From NCBI GenBank assembly GCA_024742395.1, contig JANSYO010000006.1:1-64000 (forward strand): a stretch of 64,000 nt of DNA. The letters are read 5' to 3'. A model generated the notes under the pieces. That model saw only the letters and a program-made list of their open reading frames with translations. It ran no database searches and was not told the origin of the DNA. The position numbers and the translations under genes were made by a program. Below are positions 17,612-53,587 of the stretch, piece by piece (within the stretch, counting starts at the first letter, position 1; each line of letters begins with the position of its first letter). This DNA is from Cytophagales bacterium (GTDB lineage Bacteria > Bacteroidota > Bacteroidia > Cytophagales > Spirosomataceae).

Positions 17612-17619
17612 TATTTTTG
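17612..17619 (+). promoter_or_regulatory. -7 box upstream of the SASA esterase gene
   Basis: TATTTTTG matches TAnnTTTG and lies only 9 nt before the ATG at 17629, which would give a very short or absent leader. It also covers the TTG at 17617 that could otherwise be read as an earlier start. Confidence 0.45.
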
Positions 17620-17628
17620 CCCCCGCTC

Positions 17629-19557
17629 ATGATGAAAAAGCTTACACTTCTGGCCTCTTTAACCTTGGCATGCCTTTCTGGATTGGCTCAGATTTCTATC
17701 TCTTTTCCAGTAGAACGTCAAATATTCCAAAGGAACAATTCGAATCAAGGTTACATCCATATCAGCGGTAACTTTACAGCTGATTATGACAGTATTACGG
17801 CAAAAGTTTTCCCCAGAGTAGTAGGTCAAGGTACCGCCAGTAATTGGCAAACCGTTGATTACAGAGACGGAAAACCCTATTTCTCCGGGAAGATTTTAGT
17901 TCAGGGCGGCTGGTACAAACTGGGCGTAAAAGCTTACAAAAACGGCGTACAAATTGACTCAGTAGGTAGAGAAAGAGTAGGCATGGGAGAGGTATTTGTC
18001 ATTGCTGGCCAATCAAATGCTACAGGTATTACTGAGCGTGTAGAAGGCGGGGTACCAACCGGACTTGGATATGATTCAAATGACGACAGGTCAAACGTTA
18101 TGCACTACTCAAATGGATATAATACCTACAATCCGTTACCCTTTGGGTTTTCTCAAATGAGTGCTGCTAATGTACCAAATGACACCCTTTTTATTGGCCC
18201 TTTTCATTCAGCACCGTGGTGCTGGGGAAAAGTCTCAGAGAATTTGGTTAGCATGCTTAACGTTCCGGTTTTGTTTTACGGAGCCGGATTTGGCGGAACA
18301 AAAGTTCAATGGTGGAAAGAATCTGCCAATGGTGAGCCCTTAACTTCTCCTTCTTATTTCATTTATGAAGAATATGATCACCCCTATGGAGCATTAGGAA
18401 TTGTCATGAGGCAGTATGCAGGGTTAACCGGTCTTAGATCAGTACTTTGGCACCAAGGGGAATCTGATCACGGAACCTCCTCTGGTGACTATCAAAGCTA
18501 TTTAACTCAAGTAATAGCTAAATCTCGTGAGCATTCGGAAATAGCAAATTTAACATGGATGGTAGCACGTGCCTCAAGATCTGTCAATACGGCATCCAAT
18601 GTGATACTTGGACAGCAAAACACCATTAATAATGATGCAAATGTCTTCAATGGTCCTGAAACTGACAATATTCTAACATCTGATGGCGGAACAACTTACA
18701 GGTCAGACGGAACGCACATGGATACTGATGCTGGTATTATTGAACATGCCAATTATTGGGTCAACTATATAACCAACGGATTCTTATCAAGCTCAACTCC
18801 CGTATTGGCAAATGATCTTTTAGAATTAAACTTTGCCTGCAACCCCGCTAACGCTTCAACTCCTATAACACTATCTGTTTCAGGAACCTATGATGACTAT
18901 GCCTGGTCAAATAGAGATAATACGGATTCAGAAGCTCGGGGACAATTTAATAATTGCTGTAAAACCCACACAGTTTTACCTGGGGCTACGTACCACCGCT
19001 TAAACTGGCAATACGATAGTACAAGCAGCATTACTGTGGGTCCGGGTCGTTATGCTTTAAATGTCAGAAAGCCTTCATCCGGAAAAATTCTTTTTAGTCC
19101 AATTGTAGACTTAAATTCATTTACGCTACCTACCAGTCCATCTTTCACCACTTCGGCGGCACAGATCAGACCTGGAGATTCAGTCACTCTTACGGGAGCA
19201 AACTGTAACGGTAGTTATTTATGGAATACCTCCGCCACAGCAAACCCTTTAGTCATTAGTCCGGCCTCTACGGCCTCTTACAGTGTTCAGTGTAAAACTT
19301 TACATTGTCTGAGTGCAGCCACAGCTGCTCAGCAGGTGGTGGTTTCTTCCTGTTTTGGTTCACCTCTTACCTTAAGCGGTACGGTGAGTACAGCTCAGTC
19401 ATATTATGGCAGCCTTCAGAACATTGGTAGTACGCAGCAAATCACCTCGCCTAATGGTAAAATAGATTACAAGGCCAGCGACAATATCACCCTTAGTCCG
19501 GGTTTCAAGGCTGAAAGCGGAACCGTTTTCAAAGCCACCATAGAAGACTGCAATTAG
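17629..19557 (+). CDS. Secreted SASA-type esterase with conserved Cys C-terminal domain
   Basis: A 642-residue exoprotein. I take the ATG at 17629 (or 17632) rather than the upstream TTG, because a clean Sec signal MMKKLTLLASLTLACLSGLAQ follows. Residues about 20-115 form a beta-rich domain; about 120-375 is a sialate O-acetylesterase/SGNH-like domain with the catalytic block VFVIAGQSNATG and the later WHQGESDHG. An Ig-like segment (ITLSVSG... and GDSVTLTGANCNG) precedes a roughly 65-residue C-terminal domain ending SPGFKAESGTVFKATIEDCN. That last domain recurs in the genes at 26487 and 50831. Probable action: removal of acyl groups from extracellular glycans. Confidence 0.83.
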   Translation: MMKKLTLLASLTLACLSGLAQISISFPVERQIFQRNNSNQGYIHISGNFTADYDSITAKVFPRVVGQGTASNWQTVDYRDGKPYFSGKILVQGGWYKLGVKAYKNGVQIDSVGRERVGMGEVFVIAGQSNATGITERVEGGVPTGLGYDSNDDRSNVMHYSNGYNTYNPLPFGFSQMSAANVPNDTLFIGPFHSAPWCWGKVSENLVSMLNVPVLFYGAGFGGTKVQWWKESANGEPLTSPSYFIYEEYDHPYGALGIVMRQYAGLTGLRSVLWHQGESDHGTSSGDYQSYLTQVIAKSREHSEIANLTWMVARASRSVNTASNVILGQQNTINNDANVFNGPETDNILTSDGGTTYRSDGTHMDTDAGIIEHANYWVNYITNGFLSSSTPVLANDLLELNFACNPANASTPITLSVSGTYDDYAWSNRDNTDSEARGQFNNCCKTHTVLPGATYHRLNWQYDSTSSITVGPGRYALNVRKPSSGKILFSPIVDLNSFTLPTSPSFTTSAAQIRPGDSVTLTGANCNGSYLWNTSATANPLVISPASTASYSVQCKTLHCLSAATAAQQVVVSSCFGSPLTLSGTVSTAQSYYGSLQNIGSTQQITSPNGKIDYKASDNITLSPGFKAESGTVFKATIEDCN

Positions 19558-26486: not shown

Positions 26487-27827
26487 ATGAATCTGAATCA
26501 ACTTAAAATTATCGTATTAAGCTTTCTTCTTATGGTTTCTGCCCAAACCAGAGGGCAGATAATTTATCCCAACGATTCAGGAATAGTTTGGTCAAGCGGA
26601 AGTACTTACCCGATTATCTGGAATCTCCCGGAGATTGCTTCAACCGATACATTGGTGATTAATATACAAGTCTCTTCTAGAAAAAATAACTCAACTTTCT
26701 TAGAGTTGAGCAGATCCGTTAATTCTGGTTTTGAGATTATTCAACTTCCTGAATTATTTAATTCTCTAGATGAAACTAAATTAATTTTTACTACTCTAAA
26801 TGACTCAGTAATATTTACATCTCAAGAGCCCTTTAGAATAAAAGGATTTAGCAAAGATCTTTGGATTACGAATGAAGACTCTCTGGTGATATCGGAAAAT
26901 AAGTTCATTCCAAATTCTTATTTCAACCTCGGCTTTTTTAATGAAATAAAGGTTTGGGATGTTACAGGTGATTATAACAGCTCTCAACAGCATATATTTT
27001 ATAAAAACCCTGATATGAGCTTAAGCTGCTATGAAAAACAAATACTAAATCAGGATTATTTAATTTTTCAGACATTTAAATCTGGTTACCATTTTTTCAT
27101 AAGAGACAACTATAGGGATTTCAGCCTTTATAATAGCCCTTTTACAGGATGTAATTCATTTATATATTCATCAACCATAAAATTTGATGACTTTTTCTTT
27201 CCTACAGCCGCCATTCGCTCATTTATACCGGCTTCAAGGTTAAATACGAATCAGCTCTATAAAGCAGTCATAGGTGATCAAAATTACTTTACAGATTCTA
27301 TAAAATTTGGTCTTTTGCAGTGGAATGATGACACTATTTCAGTATTTGAGCCAGTCTTTAATGATATGTATGGTTACAATAACTTCTACGTTATTGTAGA
27401 TTCCATAGGTAAAATATCGAAGTCGTCAGAACAACTTTATAATCTTAATTTGCCAATTGGTAACTATATAATTTATGGAATTAGGGCTAAGCTTTATGAA
27501 GGAAGAGAACTACATTTTGATACGAGTAGGTTGATAAATAAAAAGTTTAGCCAATTGCTGAGTATGATGCCGCAAGAGGGTTTTCTAATTTCTCAAAACC
27601 TTGGAATATTAGTGGTGACAAAAAGTTGTCGAAACATTCAAATACCGAAATCAAATTATGCGTCTACTTGGCAGCTTGATGAGCAATCAATAAATGATAG
27701 CAATATTCACTTTTTTGGAGCAAAAACCTTATACTCTGCCAGCAAAATTGTAGAACTATTGCCAGGTTTTCAAGCCGTTAAAGGGTCCTTATTTGAAGCT
27801 AAAATTGAAGAGGGCTGTGAAAAATAA
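26487..27827 (+). CDS. Secreted protein with Kre9-like N terminus and conserved Cys C-terminal domain
   Basis: A 446-residue exoprotein with a Sec signal (about residues 1-24, ending TRGQ). The first mature domain (about 25-118) follows the pattern YPNDSGIVWSSGSTYPIIW, as in the Kre9/KNH Ser-Thr-rich fold family. The middle (about 120-370) is unassigned and aromatic-rich. The last ~65 residues form the domain shared with the genes at 17629 and 50831 (SASKIVELLPGFQAVKGSLF then EEGCEK). Its base composition is more AT-rich than neighbours. Function unknown; surface display is the best guess. Confidence 0.7.
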   Translation: MNLNQLKIIVLSFLLMVSAQTRGQIIYPNDSGIVWSSGSTYPIIWNLPEIASTDTLVINIQVSSRKNNSTFLELSRSVNSGFEIIQLPELFNSLDETKLIFTTLNDSVIFTSQEPFRIKGFSKDLWITNEDSLVISENKFIPNSYFNLGFFNEIKVWDVTGDYNSSQQHIFYKNPDMSLSCYEKQILNQDYLIFQTFKSGYHFFIRDNYRDFSLYNSPFTGCNSFIYSSTIKFDDFFFPTAAIRSFIPASRLNTNQLYKAVIGDQNYFTDSIKFGLLQWNDDTISVFEPVFNDMYGYNNFYVIVDSIGKISKSSEQLYNLNLPIGNYIIYGIRAKLYEGRELHFDTSRLINKKFSQLLSMMPQEGFLISQNLGILVVTKSCRNIQIPKSNYASTWQLDEQSINDSNIHFFGAKTLYSASKIVELLPGFQAVKGSLFEAKIEEGCEK

Positions 27828-49147: not shown

Positions 49148-50728
49148 ATGAAATCAAACGTATTCATAGGTCTCTTGTTTTTCATCGCAATAGGCACTTC
49201 TGCTCAAACTCAATTTCTGATAAAACCCTATCTTCAGGATGCAGAGCCCCATTCAGTAAAGATCAAGTGGGAAACATCAGAAGGTGAAGAAAGTGTGGTA
49301 GAATGGGGACTTACACCCCAGTTTGGTCATTTGTCAAAAGGGTCTTCTTCAGAGGTCTATTATGGCGGAGGCATTATCCATGAAGTTAAACTACATTCAC
49401 TGAAGCGTTTTACCGTCTACTACTATAGAGTTAAAACAGGTACTTTATTCTCAGATACCTATCAATTCAAAACACCTCCATTCGCTGAAGACAGGGAGTC
49501 TTTTAGTCTTATTGCTATGAGTGATATGCAAAAGGATCACAACAACCCTGATAAATTCAGTGAGGTGGTGAACGAAGGTATCCTCAAATACATGACCGAG
49601 AAATTTGACGGCAAATTGCCAGACAATTTGGCAATGGTTCTTGTGCCGGGAGACCTGGTAGAGAACGGTCTGGAATACGGCCAATGGCAAAAGGACTTTT
49701 TCTCTCCGGGCGAAAAGCTCTTTTCTGAGGTTCCTGTGTATCCTGTTTTAGGAAATCATGAAAAAAACTCTACTTACTATTTCAAATATTTCAGTCTTCC
49801 AAGAAACGGATCACCTTCATTTAAAGAACATTGGTGGTATAAGGATTATGGAAATACACGAATCATTGGTCTCAACTCCAATGAAGGCTTCAGAGATGCT
49901 AAACAACAGTACAATTGGCTCAAACAAACCTTAAGAAATACCGCCCGAGACAAGTCCATAGACTTTGTTTTTGCAGAACTGCACCATCCATTTAAGTCTG
50001 AATTATGGATACCGGGAGAGGAGGAGTTTACCGGCCAAGTCATTAAGTTGCTGGAAGATTTCTCAGAAAAATCAGGGAAACCTAGTATACACTTTTTTGG
50101 CCATACCCATGGCTATTCCAGGGGTCAGTCTAAAGACCACAAACACCTGTGGATCAATGTTGCTTCAGCGGGTGGAGCACTAGATAATTGGGGAGAATTT
50201 GAAGGTAAAGATTATGATGAGTTTTCTGTCACTCAAGACGAATACGGTTTTGTTATGGTTCAGATAGATGCCAACGAAGAAGACCCAAAGTTTACAATCA
50301 AGAGAATTAGCAGAGGCAATGAAGAAAACCCTAAAGATAATGTACTGTCTGACAGTTTAACCATTTATAAACATGAACGAAAGCCTTTAAAACCTTCCGG
50401 ACTTTACCCAATAAATGAAACGGTCGAGATTTCAGGGACGGTTTTAAAGGCTAACGACTTCAATAGCACGTTCCCATCTGCAATGCATGCAGCTTCAAAC
50501 TGGCAAATAGATACAAACAAAGAATTTAGTTCACCCATTGTAGACAGTTGGAAACAGTCTGAGAATTGGTATTTCAATGAAAACCGCCAAAAGGACGATG
50601 ATTTAACAGATGAACCTACCGGAGGGCTACAGCCAAATACCACCTATTACTGGAGAGTACGATACAGAGACCAAAATTTAAACTGGAGCGACTGGTCTGA
50701 GGTACTTTCTTTTAAAACCGCAGAATAA
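49148..50728 (+). CDS. Secreted purple-acid-phosphatase-like metallophosphoesterase
   Basis: A 526-residue exoprotein with a Sec signal (ending TSAQ). An N-terminal FnIII-like purple-acid-phosphatase domain (PYLQDAEPHSVKIKW, about 22-110) is followed by the metallophosphoesterase core with AMSDMQKDH, VPGDLVENG, VLGNHEKN, LHHPF and FFGHTHGYSRG, all metal-binding motifs in order. A last FnIII domain (about 415-525) ends YWRVRYRDQNLNWSDWSEV. It likely hydrolyses phosphoesters outside the cell. No lipobox or sorting domain. Confidence 0.9.
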   Translation: MKSNVFIGLLFFIAIGTSAQTQFLIKPYLQDAEPHSVKIKWETSEGEESVVEWGLTPQFGHLSKGSSSEVYYGGGIIHEVKLHSLKRFTVYYYRVKTGTLFSDTYQFKTPPFAEDRESFSLIAMSDMQKDHNNPDKFSEVVNEGILKYMTEKFDGKLPDNLAMVLVPGDLVENGLEYGQWQKDFFSPGEKLFSEVPVYPVLGNHEKNSTYYFKYFSLPRNGSPSFKEHWWYKDYGNTRIIGLNSNEGFRDAKQQYNWLKQTLRNTARDKSIDFVFAELHHPFKSELWIPGEEEFTGQVIKLLEDFSEKSGKPSIHFFGHTHGYSRGQSKDHKHLWINVASAGGALDNWGEFEGKDYDEFSVTQDEYGFVMVQIDANEEDPKFTIKRISRGNEENPKDNVLSDSLTIYKHERKPLKPSGLYPINETVEISGTVLKANDFNSTFPSAMHAASNWQIDTNKEFSSPIVDSWKQSENWYFNENRQKDDDLTDEPTGGLQPNTTYYWRVRYRDQNLNWSDWSEVLSFKTAE

Positions 50729-50830: not shown

Positions 50831-53587
50831 ATGCAAAAAACAATCTTTACCACTCTGCTTCTTTTCATTACTTTCCTGTCTGGACACGCACAGTTACCAG
50901 ATAATTTGGTTCTTAATCTTGACTTTAATAATGACTTTCAGGATAGCCAAAATGCACATACAGTAACGGCTACAAACCTCACATTTGCTCAAGATCGGTT
51001 TGGCAATGCGGAGTCAGCAGTAAACTTTCCGGGCTGGTGTGGAGGTAACCCGGGTCATTTAAAAATTGACAATGCTCCATACTTACAATTCACTTCCGGC
51101 TTTACAGCTAATTTTTGGGCTTCTGTTGATTTATCACAAGGAATGGATCCGTCAACAGGCACATGCTCCGCAAATGGCCACCATATGCTTTTTGCCAAAG
51201 GTGGTGATGGCTTTGGCGGCTCACCAAACGGCATATACTTTAAATATACAAATCTGGGAGAACATGTAATGGGCACTTCTCCTGGCAGCTCAGATCTTTA
51301 TAACAGTGTTAATGTGCCAAATTCAGCAGATTGGCACATGTACACCTACACCGTAACACCCAGCGAATACCAATTTTACTTAGATGGCGTACTCGTTCAG
51401 TCTGCCAGTCATACATTAAACTTTAATGAATTAAATGCGGAAGACATTTATCTTGGCATTTTGGGGCCCAAATCAAGCCCTGCATTAGGAATAACAGATT
51501 GGTTTCCTCTGACTGGCCAACTTGATGACTTTCTTCTTTTTAATAAGCCCCTAAGCTCGTCAGAAATATCTTCTTTACTAACATTTACTAATTCTGCTCC
51601 TTCTATTTCCAGAATAGAACGTATCAATCAAGATGTTGTTCTTAGTGGTGGACGACGATACCTTTGGAGCAATACATTGCATGATTTCAGCGAAAATTTA
51701 ATTGTTTCTTCTTACAATCCTGGCTTAAATAATGCCCAGATGAATCCAAAAGTGTATCTAAGCAAGGTAGGCAAAGACTCTCTTTCACACTCTATTGAAG
51801 TTACTTATCAGAAAGCCAATCCTAGCTATTCACAAATTGATAATTTCCGGGTAGAAAAGCTTGACAATATTTATGTACTATTATTTGACTATCCTGCAAG
51901 TTATGATACCGACAGCCTACTTATTTTTGACAGCCAATTGACCTTTTTGAGCGGCCTTTCCTTGACAAACAAAAAAATCAGACAGTCTTTCGTATGGGAC
52001 AATAAGTTTGTCATTGTATCTGAAAGTACTTCTCCAGAACAGACTTTTGTTCAATTCTTTGACATGAACCTTAACTTTTTAAACGAGTCAATCATAAATC
52101 AAAAAATAACAAAAGTGGATTTTAACTCTGACGAGATAGTTTTGTCAAACAATGCCAGCTTCTTCGTCTACAATTCAACTTCCCTAAGTTTTGCAGAAAA
52201 TTCCATCGCCTCTGATAATCTTTTCCTCACAAAAGAAAACATCCTGCTTAGAACAGACACAAAAATCGTTTTAAAGAGCTTAAATAACTTAGCAAGTGCT
52301 ACAGAAGTAAATGTAAACTCTGATTCTCTTTATATAGATACAGATTCCTCTCATTTCTATATCTTACTGGGAAGCAGAATATCAAAATACGACAGCCAGT
52401 TTCAGCTTGTCACCTTTTTTGACCTACCCACTACTTATGACCAGGTGGGCTTTTCAGGTGGTCTGTTTATCTGCAAAAACAACTTGGGAATTAGTGAGGG
52501 GATAAAATATTTTATCTTCACAAATAATGGGACTCTAATTTCTGAGCAAAACAGCGATTACTTCGAAAATACAGACCTCAACTACGCACTATATAAATTA
52601 AATAGTGGCACCTATCTTTCAAAAATCGGAAATTCATTGACTCATTTCAGTGAATCTGGCTTGGTATACTGGACAAAAAACATTACAGGAAATGACATTT
52701 TTATCGAGCAAGATGACAGCTTCTGGATGCTCACAAAAGGAGGAAACAGAGAGAATCTTTTAGTTAAAATTAATAAAGACACCCAAAGGTGCAATTACCC
52801 ATCTTTAAATCCCTTTAGTGAAAGCTATTGCCCACCTTCAAACGAAATACTACACACCTTGGAGCCCAGATTCTCAGGAACTTTTAGTTCTTATAGCTAT
52901 GCCGCTCCCCCTCTTTCTTCACTTATCAAAAACTATCTGAATTTAGGAATATCTTTCGCCTGGAAAAAGGATGGTCAGGTCTATTCCAATGAATACTTTG
53001 GTGAATTTAGTGGCAATGGAAATTACTCTTTAGTCACCCTTCAGGGAGACTGTGCGGTAGAAAGCCCGCAAAAACCTATTGCCTATTCCAACAGTAAGAA
53101 TCCCGTCTCTCCTTCTCTTACTGCTAGTAAAGAGTTTATTTGTGATGGTGAGTCTGTAACGCTCACAGCCATTTGTGAGGGTGGAAGCTTTAATAGCTGG
53201 ATTGACGACCCCATGTATCAATTGTCATATGAAAGAAATGAGACATTAAGCAGCACTACCAGCTATTCTGCGTATTGCCGTACTGAATATTCAAGGCTGG
53301 ATGAAATTAGTTATGGAGGTCAAACCGTTAATAAGGCAATCTGTGTTTCAGATAACTCAAATGTCACAATTGAAGTACTTCAGCGATCAGCCACCTTAAA
53401 TTTAACTGAAGCTCTTTCAGAATCTAAAAACTATCACTCGGGTAAAATCATAAGTTCCCAAAAACTTTCGGGCCTAAATAGCCAGGTAAATTACCTTTCT
53501 GCAAAGTCCGTAAGTCTAATGCCTGGGTTTGAAGCCGGAAATAACATCCACTTTCTCAGTTCGATCTATACGGGCTGTCAAAACTAA
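50831..53587 (+). CDS. LamG exoprotein with conserved Cys C-terminal domain
   Basis: A 918-residue exoprotein with a Sec signal (ending GHAQ). Residues about 25-250 form a LamG/concanavalin domain (LVLNLDFNNDFQDSQN at the start, GQLDDFLLFNKPLSSSEI at the end). Residues about 265-640 look like repeated beta strands, possibly a propeller, unassigned. A Cys-containing Ig-like region (CDGESVTLTAICEGG) precedes the C-terminal domain shared with the genes at 17629 and 26487 (AKSVSLMPGFEAGNNIHF, GCQN). Expected to bind glycans at the surface. Confidence 0.78.
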   Translation: MQKTIFTTLLLFITFLSGHAQLPDNLVLNLDFNNDFQDSQNAHTVTATNLTFAQDRFGNAESAVNFPGWCGGNPGHLKIDNAPYLQFTSGFTANFWASVDLSQGMDPSTGTCSANGHHMLFAKGGDGFGGSPNGIYFKYTNLGEHVMGTSPGSSDLYNSVNVPNSADWHMYTYTVTPSEYQFYLDGVLVQSASHTLNFNELNAEDIYLGILGPKSSPALGITDWFPLTGQLDDFLLFNKPLSSSEISSLLTFTNSAPSISRIERINQDVVLSGGRRYLWSNTLHDFSENLIVSSYNPGLNNAQMNPKVYLSKVGKDSLSHSIEVTYQKANPSYSQIDNFRVEKLDNIYVLLFDYPASYDTDSLLIFDSQLTFLSGLSLTNKKIRQSFVWDNKFVIVSESTSPEQTFVQFFDMNLNFLNESIINQKITKVDFNSDEIVLSNNASFFVYNSTSLSFAENSIASDNLFLTKENILLRTDTKIVLKSLNNLASATEVNVNSDSLYIDTDSSHFYILLGSRISKYDSQFQLVTFFDLPTTYDQVGFSGGLFICKNNLGISEGIKYFIFTNNGTLISEQNSDYFENTDLNYALYKLNSGTYLSKIGNSLTHFSESGLVYWTKNITGNDIFIEQDDSFWMLTKGGNRENLLVKINKDTQRCNYPSLNPFSESYCPPSNEILHTLEPRFSGTFSSYSYAAPPLSSLIKNYLNLGISFAWKKDGQVYSNEYFGEFSGNGNYSLVTLQGDCAVESPQKPIAYSNSKNPVSPSLTASKEFICDGESVTLTAICEGGSFNSWIDDPMYQLSYERNETLSSTTSYSAYCRTEYSRLDEISYGGQTVNKAICVSDNSNVTIEVLQRSATLNLTEALSESKNYHSGKIISSQKLSGLNSQVNYLSAKSVSLMPGFEAGNNIHFLSSIYTGCQN

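Follow-up and report, generated by a model that had tools for sequence, protein, structure and literature searches.

Why do three exported proteins with unrelated upstream parts end in the same short tail? The question arises in a stretch of 64,000 nucleotides from a Cytophagales bacterium, referred to in the following as the window, in which an esterase, a 446-residue protein and a LamG protein share a C-terminal pattern with a cysteine close to the end. The original prediction took this tail for a sorting or anchoring module distinct from the usual sorting domain of the type IX secretion system (T9SS), and pointed to a Gly-Cys-X class of Bacteroidota. This class exists as the NCBIfam family GCX_COOH (NF045639; in the following, GCX). 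It is thus already catalogued by NCBI, but a literature search by family name found no published function, so that its role is, as far as we found, apparently unpublished. What we add here concerns its fold, its use as a C-terminal module, its amplification, its exchange with the type A tail of the T9SS and the covariation of its cysteines.

Three tails of one family

The first tail belongs to an exported SASA-family esterase of 646 residues (positions 17617–19557, forward strand; PF03629 at residues 125–372), which begins with a signal peptide whose last residues are LAQ. Its tail (19351–19554, forward; NF045639 match at residues 601–646) has one cysteine at its start (codon 19351–19353) and one at its end (codon 19549–19551), and closes on DCN, with a single asparagine after the cysteine. 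The closest named relative of this esterase, at 72% identity, is from Jiulongibacter sediminis, which NCBI places in the Leadbetterellaceae; the window's bacterium probably belongs to the same genus. The second tail (27627–27824, forward; start cysteine codon 27627–27629, end cysteine codon 27816–27818) terminates in GCEK and is carried by an exported protein of 446 residues (26487–27827, forward), which has a signal peptide and matches no Pfam family at an E value of 0.1; its earlier label, ‘Kre9-like’, thus finds no support in Pfam at this threshold. The third tail (53432–53584, forward; end cysteine codon 53576–53578) has no start cysteine, terminates in GCQN and follows an Ig-like domain in an exported LamG protein of 918 residues (50831–53587, forward; PF13385 at residues 73–247, NF045639 at 868–916). 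The LamG gene adjoins that of an exported purple-acid-phosphatase-like enzyme (49148–50728), which has an Ig-like end and, unlike tailed relatives elsewhere, neither a GCX nor a T9SS tail.

All three tails exceed the curated cut-off of NF045639 (26 bits), with 54.3 bits for the esterase, 42.3 for the 446-residue protein and 29.5 for the LamG protein, corresponding to E values of 1.1e-15, 2.2e-11 and 1.5e-7 in their own genome; even the weakest match, that of the LamG protein, is clearly a member of the family. The same genome contains 34 GCX matches, of which 32 lie above the cut-off. Since none was found in 14 control genomes, the family stands far above chance. A Pfam model for the domain was not found.

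In its essentials, the tail is as first described: the pattern is legible in all three proteins (19351–19557, 27621–27827 and 53381–53587), and it stands as a module behind unrelated upstream parts, namely a SASA esterase domain, a region without Pfam match and a LamG domain. The cysteine, expected two to three residues from the end, lies two residues from it in the second and third tail and slightly nearer, at one residue, in the first. The proposed distinction from the usual T9SS domain likewise stood, as none of the three proteins matches the type A model (TIGR04183) or, in whole-library scans, the type B models (TIGR04131/PF13585) or any other tail model; a type C (ChiA) match was also absent from the NCBIfam and Pfam scans, which may contain no type C model.

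Hosts, distribution and predicted fold

Most GCX copies in the window's genome form the end of their protein, with one to three residues beyond the cysteine. Among 44 complete GCX-tailed proteins, a script recognized a signal peptide in 40, and at least three of the remaining four seem by eye to have one; 38 of these 40 have a glutamine near the cleavage site, a feature described as the Q-rule of Bacteroidetes (PMC5837995). Their upstream domains are very varied, including M12B, S8 and M43 peptidases, SASA esterases, FG-GAP, sortilin propeller and LamG domains, and are of the kind usually found in T9SS cargo. In several proteins, an Ig_7 ‘CHU_C associated’ domain precedes the GCX tail, which thus takes a position that a type B tail could occupy.

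Across the phylum, 25 of 198 sampled genomes have any GCX match, and outside the window's family these are mostly one or two copies. Within that family, the distribution over 61 genomes is two-peaked: 16 genomes have 13–73 copies, and 45 have 0–7. Where GCX-poor genomes have a copy at all, it is in most cases a single one, in a protein of about 180–220 residues, built of a signal peptide, a GCX domain and a T9SS type A tail. Proteins of this build (L028/L246 and their relatives L068–L086 and L247–L270) usually occur once per genome, and the window's own genome is the only GCX-rich one in which our search gave a clear full-length relative (L028).

Other copies lie within the protein. Some precede a T9SS type A or type A-like tail (L090, L105, L074), and others (L118, L126, L060, L063, L024) are followed, with no known T9SS tail, by regions that are LamG, sorbosone-dehydrogenase-like or unnamed. 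In four of the latter, L118, L126 (2|2286), L060 and L063, the typical terminal endings GGCEN, GGCQN, EGCTN and EGCSN are kept, yet the protein continues with a LamG or dehydrogenase-like domain, as though two genes had been fused. In other families, RHS-like proteins are also among the hosts (L037, L039, L043, L056).

Modeled with AlphaFold2 (mean pLDDT 90.8), the 75 C-terminal residues of the esterase have strands at residues 13–15, 23–28, 32–34, 44–49, 53–55 and 66–71, a repeating pattern that, in this prediction, fits three stacked repeats, or coathangers. The GCX tail is thus predicted with high confidence to be a three-coil beta-solenoid. Beta-solenoids head the list of weak structural alignments, with a best Z score of 4.5. 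Homology to a solved structure was considered and dropped, as no PDB sequence match fell below an E value of 0.28 and no Foldseek match below 0.001. The 165 C-terminal residues of the LamG protein, modeled with a mean pLDDT of 87.9, have Ig/PKD-like matches in the PDB.

Exchange with type IX secretion tails

The window's genome encodes a T9SS, with genes for SprA and PorV and with 35 type A tails. In the phylum sample, type A tails occur in all 21 genomes with GCX matches above the cut-off, compared with 155 of 198 genomes overall; simple counting gives this a chance of about 0.4%, but the co-occurrence is weak evidence, because the T9SS-negative genomes come mostly from one family. A genome-wide replacement of type A tails by GCX can be dismissed, as their density is unchanged, with 6.4 per Mb in GCX-rich genomes versus 6.8 (p = 0.26); overall, GCX therefore adds to the type A tails. 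Nor is a PorV paralog its dedicated partner, given that the number of PorV genes does not track that of GCX copies; this comparison yielded no partner gene. Near a GCX-tailed gene (C95:60119) lies L242 (G000:C95:63670-64386), whose product of roughly 270 residues is weakly similar to PorV, and proteins like it are present in both GCX-rich and GCX-poor genomes.

At the level of individual protein families, the two tails do replace one another. A purple-acid-phosphatase-like metallophosphoesterase ends in GCX in genome G256 and in a type A tail in G000, G211 and G216, with 43–45% identity up to the tail junction. Likewise, among the relatives of the window's LamG protein, one in G241 ends in GCX and one in G216 in a T9SS tail. 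GCX-tailed esterases 50–75% identical to that of the window occur in seven other GCX-rich genomes, and other SASA esterases have either a type A tail or a third, unnamed one. A tree built from 54 SASA catalytic domains takes four changes to explain GCX; well-supported branches force three of them, so that at least three tail switches are required. Every protein retained in this tree has one of the three tails and no complete one is tail-less. The sample was chosen by similarity to the window's esterase and excludes proteins truncated at the 3' end; nine tails that escaped the script were classified by eye, and one of the nine was then dropped. It is well supported that the GCX tail takes the position of a secretion domain; an equivalent function is what we infer.

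The third tail has a single origin in the esterase tree. It comprises about 60 residues, roughly of the form S-x-x-W-x-x-x-x-T-W-x-C-x-R-x-P ... D-x-V-x-I-x-x-x-H-x-V, and occurs on two unrelated kinds of exported proteins, namely esterases (L137, L144, L146, L147, L154, L155) and LamG proteins (L164, L165, L167, L176). Scans of three of these esterases gave matches to SASA and Ig models alone, so that the tail itself has no Pfam or NCBIfam model.

Cysteines, candidate functions and known systems

To describe the two cysteines, we classed 108 GCX domains, correcting by hand for cysteines of signal peptides and Ig domains, and regarded copies as internal when at least 90 residues follow the domain. 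Internal copies have both cysteines in 19 cases, neither in 18, only the end cysteine in three and only the start cysteine in none (Fisher 1.2e-8), in a count that includes some genes twice, as a partial and a full locus; when clustered at 60% identity, the numbers are 13, 14, two and none (p = 1.8e-6). Among the short proteins with a T9SS tail (n = 24), six have both and 18 neither. Terminal copies, for which position is confounded with lineage in the comparison with internal ones, have both in 41 cases, the end cysteine only in 26 and neither in one; the end cysteine is hence present in 67 of 68, and in 26 of the 27 without a start cysteine. This covariation is the pattern of a disulfide and suggests that the start and end cysteines often form one. 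As they co-occur in many members, and are the sole two cysteines of the entire protein in L119 0|1954 and L090 1|1055, a disulfide is also a simpler reading than a cysteine anchor. If they lie at opposite ends of the stack, a direct bond would require the flanking residues to fold back. End cysteines without a start cysteine, which are also found in internal copies of the GCX-rich genomes (L118, L126), may pair with a different cysteine, such as one in the domain before the tail, or act independently. Where an Ig-like domain precedes GCX (for example at 53087–53380 in the window and in L008, L089, L067 and L087), the first of the four Ig cysteines is, by eye, missing if the tail has a start cysteine and present if it has none.

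From these observations, the following picture can be drawn. GCX is a domain of about 65–75 residues that closes the C-terminus of Sec-exported proteins with what is predicted to be a short three-coil beta-solenoid, probably often held by a disulfide between its start and end cysteines. It has multiplied in part of the window's family, the Jiulongibacter family, as an exchangeable tail in the slot of the T9SS C-terminal domain, and would there act as an alternative domain for export across the outer membrane or location at the surface, probably read by the T9SS and a candidate class beside A, B and C. The tail swaps favor such a sorting role, one half of the original prediction, and we regard an export or surface-location domain that is probably served by the T9SS as the likeliest, though still tentative, reading. 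A bolder version, in which GCX is a further T9SS signal class (‘type D’), a beta-solenoid unrelated to the Ig-like type A, which began as a T9SS cargo domain, took on the role of a signal and expanded within one family through the swapping of tails, appears conceivable, if rather doubtful.

The main rival to an export role holds that GCX serves only structure or binding, for example as an end cap or adhesion module, and takes no part in sorting; its proteins would be periplasmic or use another route, and its terminal place would result from domain shuffling. As a pure sorting signal is unlikely to sit internally, the copies ahead of type A tails and other regions count against the export reading, and together with the undiminished type A tails they keep this rival alive. 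The RHS-like hosts in other families also speak for it, and in the roughly 200-residue proteins of GCX-poor relatives, GCX itself is the cargo. By contrast, the copies in GCX-rich genomes are mostly terminal, without a T9SS tail, and sit on enzyme families that are type A-tailed elsewhere, and the esterase tree retained no complete tail-less protein. We consider a purely structural or binding role possible, albeit with some skepticism. The other half of the original prediction, anchoring, fares less well. Here, the near-terminal cysteine would be a processing or attachment site for a thiol-linked lipid, glycan or protein, and the tail a sortase-like anchor. The near-constant end cysteine of terminal copies leaves room for this, even where the start cysteine is absent, as do the 61 of 67 cases in which only one to three residues follow it or separate it from the terminus, the 42 in which a glycine precedes it, and the distance of about 150–250 residues to the next cysteine upstream in L121 and L117. 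Yet some members have 9–17 residues beyond the cysteine, the start cysteine tends to co-occur, up to being the only other one in two proteins, and 18 of the 21 internal copies without a start cysteine also have no end cysteine, though here, too, position and lineage are confounded. Moreover, the tail has neither the motif nor the transmembrane helix nor the basic cluster at the end that mark sortase-type anchors. A disulfide is thus the more probable role of the cysteine, an attachment site a less likely possibility, and the anchor as a whole seems improbable.

If GCX is a secretion signal, current lists of T9SS substrates miss tens of exported proteins per genome in this lineage, and the range of folds that the T9SS reads would include one more that is very unlike the others. 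Homologous enzyme pairs ready for a direct test are at hand in the tail swaps.

Among known systems, the closest is NF045639 itself (‘3-coathanger stack domain-containing protein’), with which the three tails share the C-terminal place, the near-terminal cysteine and the three repeats, which appear as three solenoid coils in the predicted model; the third tail differs in having no start cysteine, which many members possess. The beta-solenoids CsgA, FapC, CcmM and bactofilin resemble it in the way their coils are stacked, as the top structural alignments show, but the Z scores are too low for kinship, and they have no sequence match to GCX. Sortase-type anchors (LPXTG, PEP-CTERM) differ from the GCX tail, which is all beta in the model and has polar or acidic ends. 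The T9SS reads several unrelated C-terminal domains, types A, B and C (PMC10202324), and types B (CHU_C) and C offer a precedent for a further one; GCX often follows the domain associated with type B, but GCX-tailed proteins match neither type B nor type C in our scans, which may contain no type C model. With type A (TIGR04183/PF18962), finally, GCX has in common that it is a small, beta-rich C-terminal module of Sec-exported exoproteins with unrelated upstream domains, which occurs in tens of copies per genome and on some of the same enzyme families. It differs from type A in sequence, without a match between them, and in fold: the type A domain is a seven-stranded Ig-like sandwich (PMC10202324, PMC12618676), whereas GCX is a predicted beta-solenoid that ends in a cysteine.
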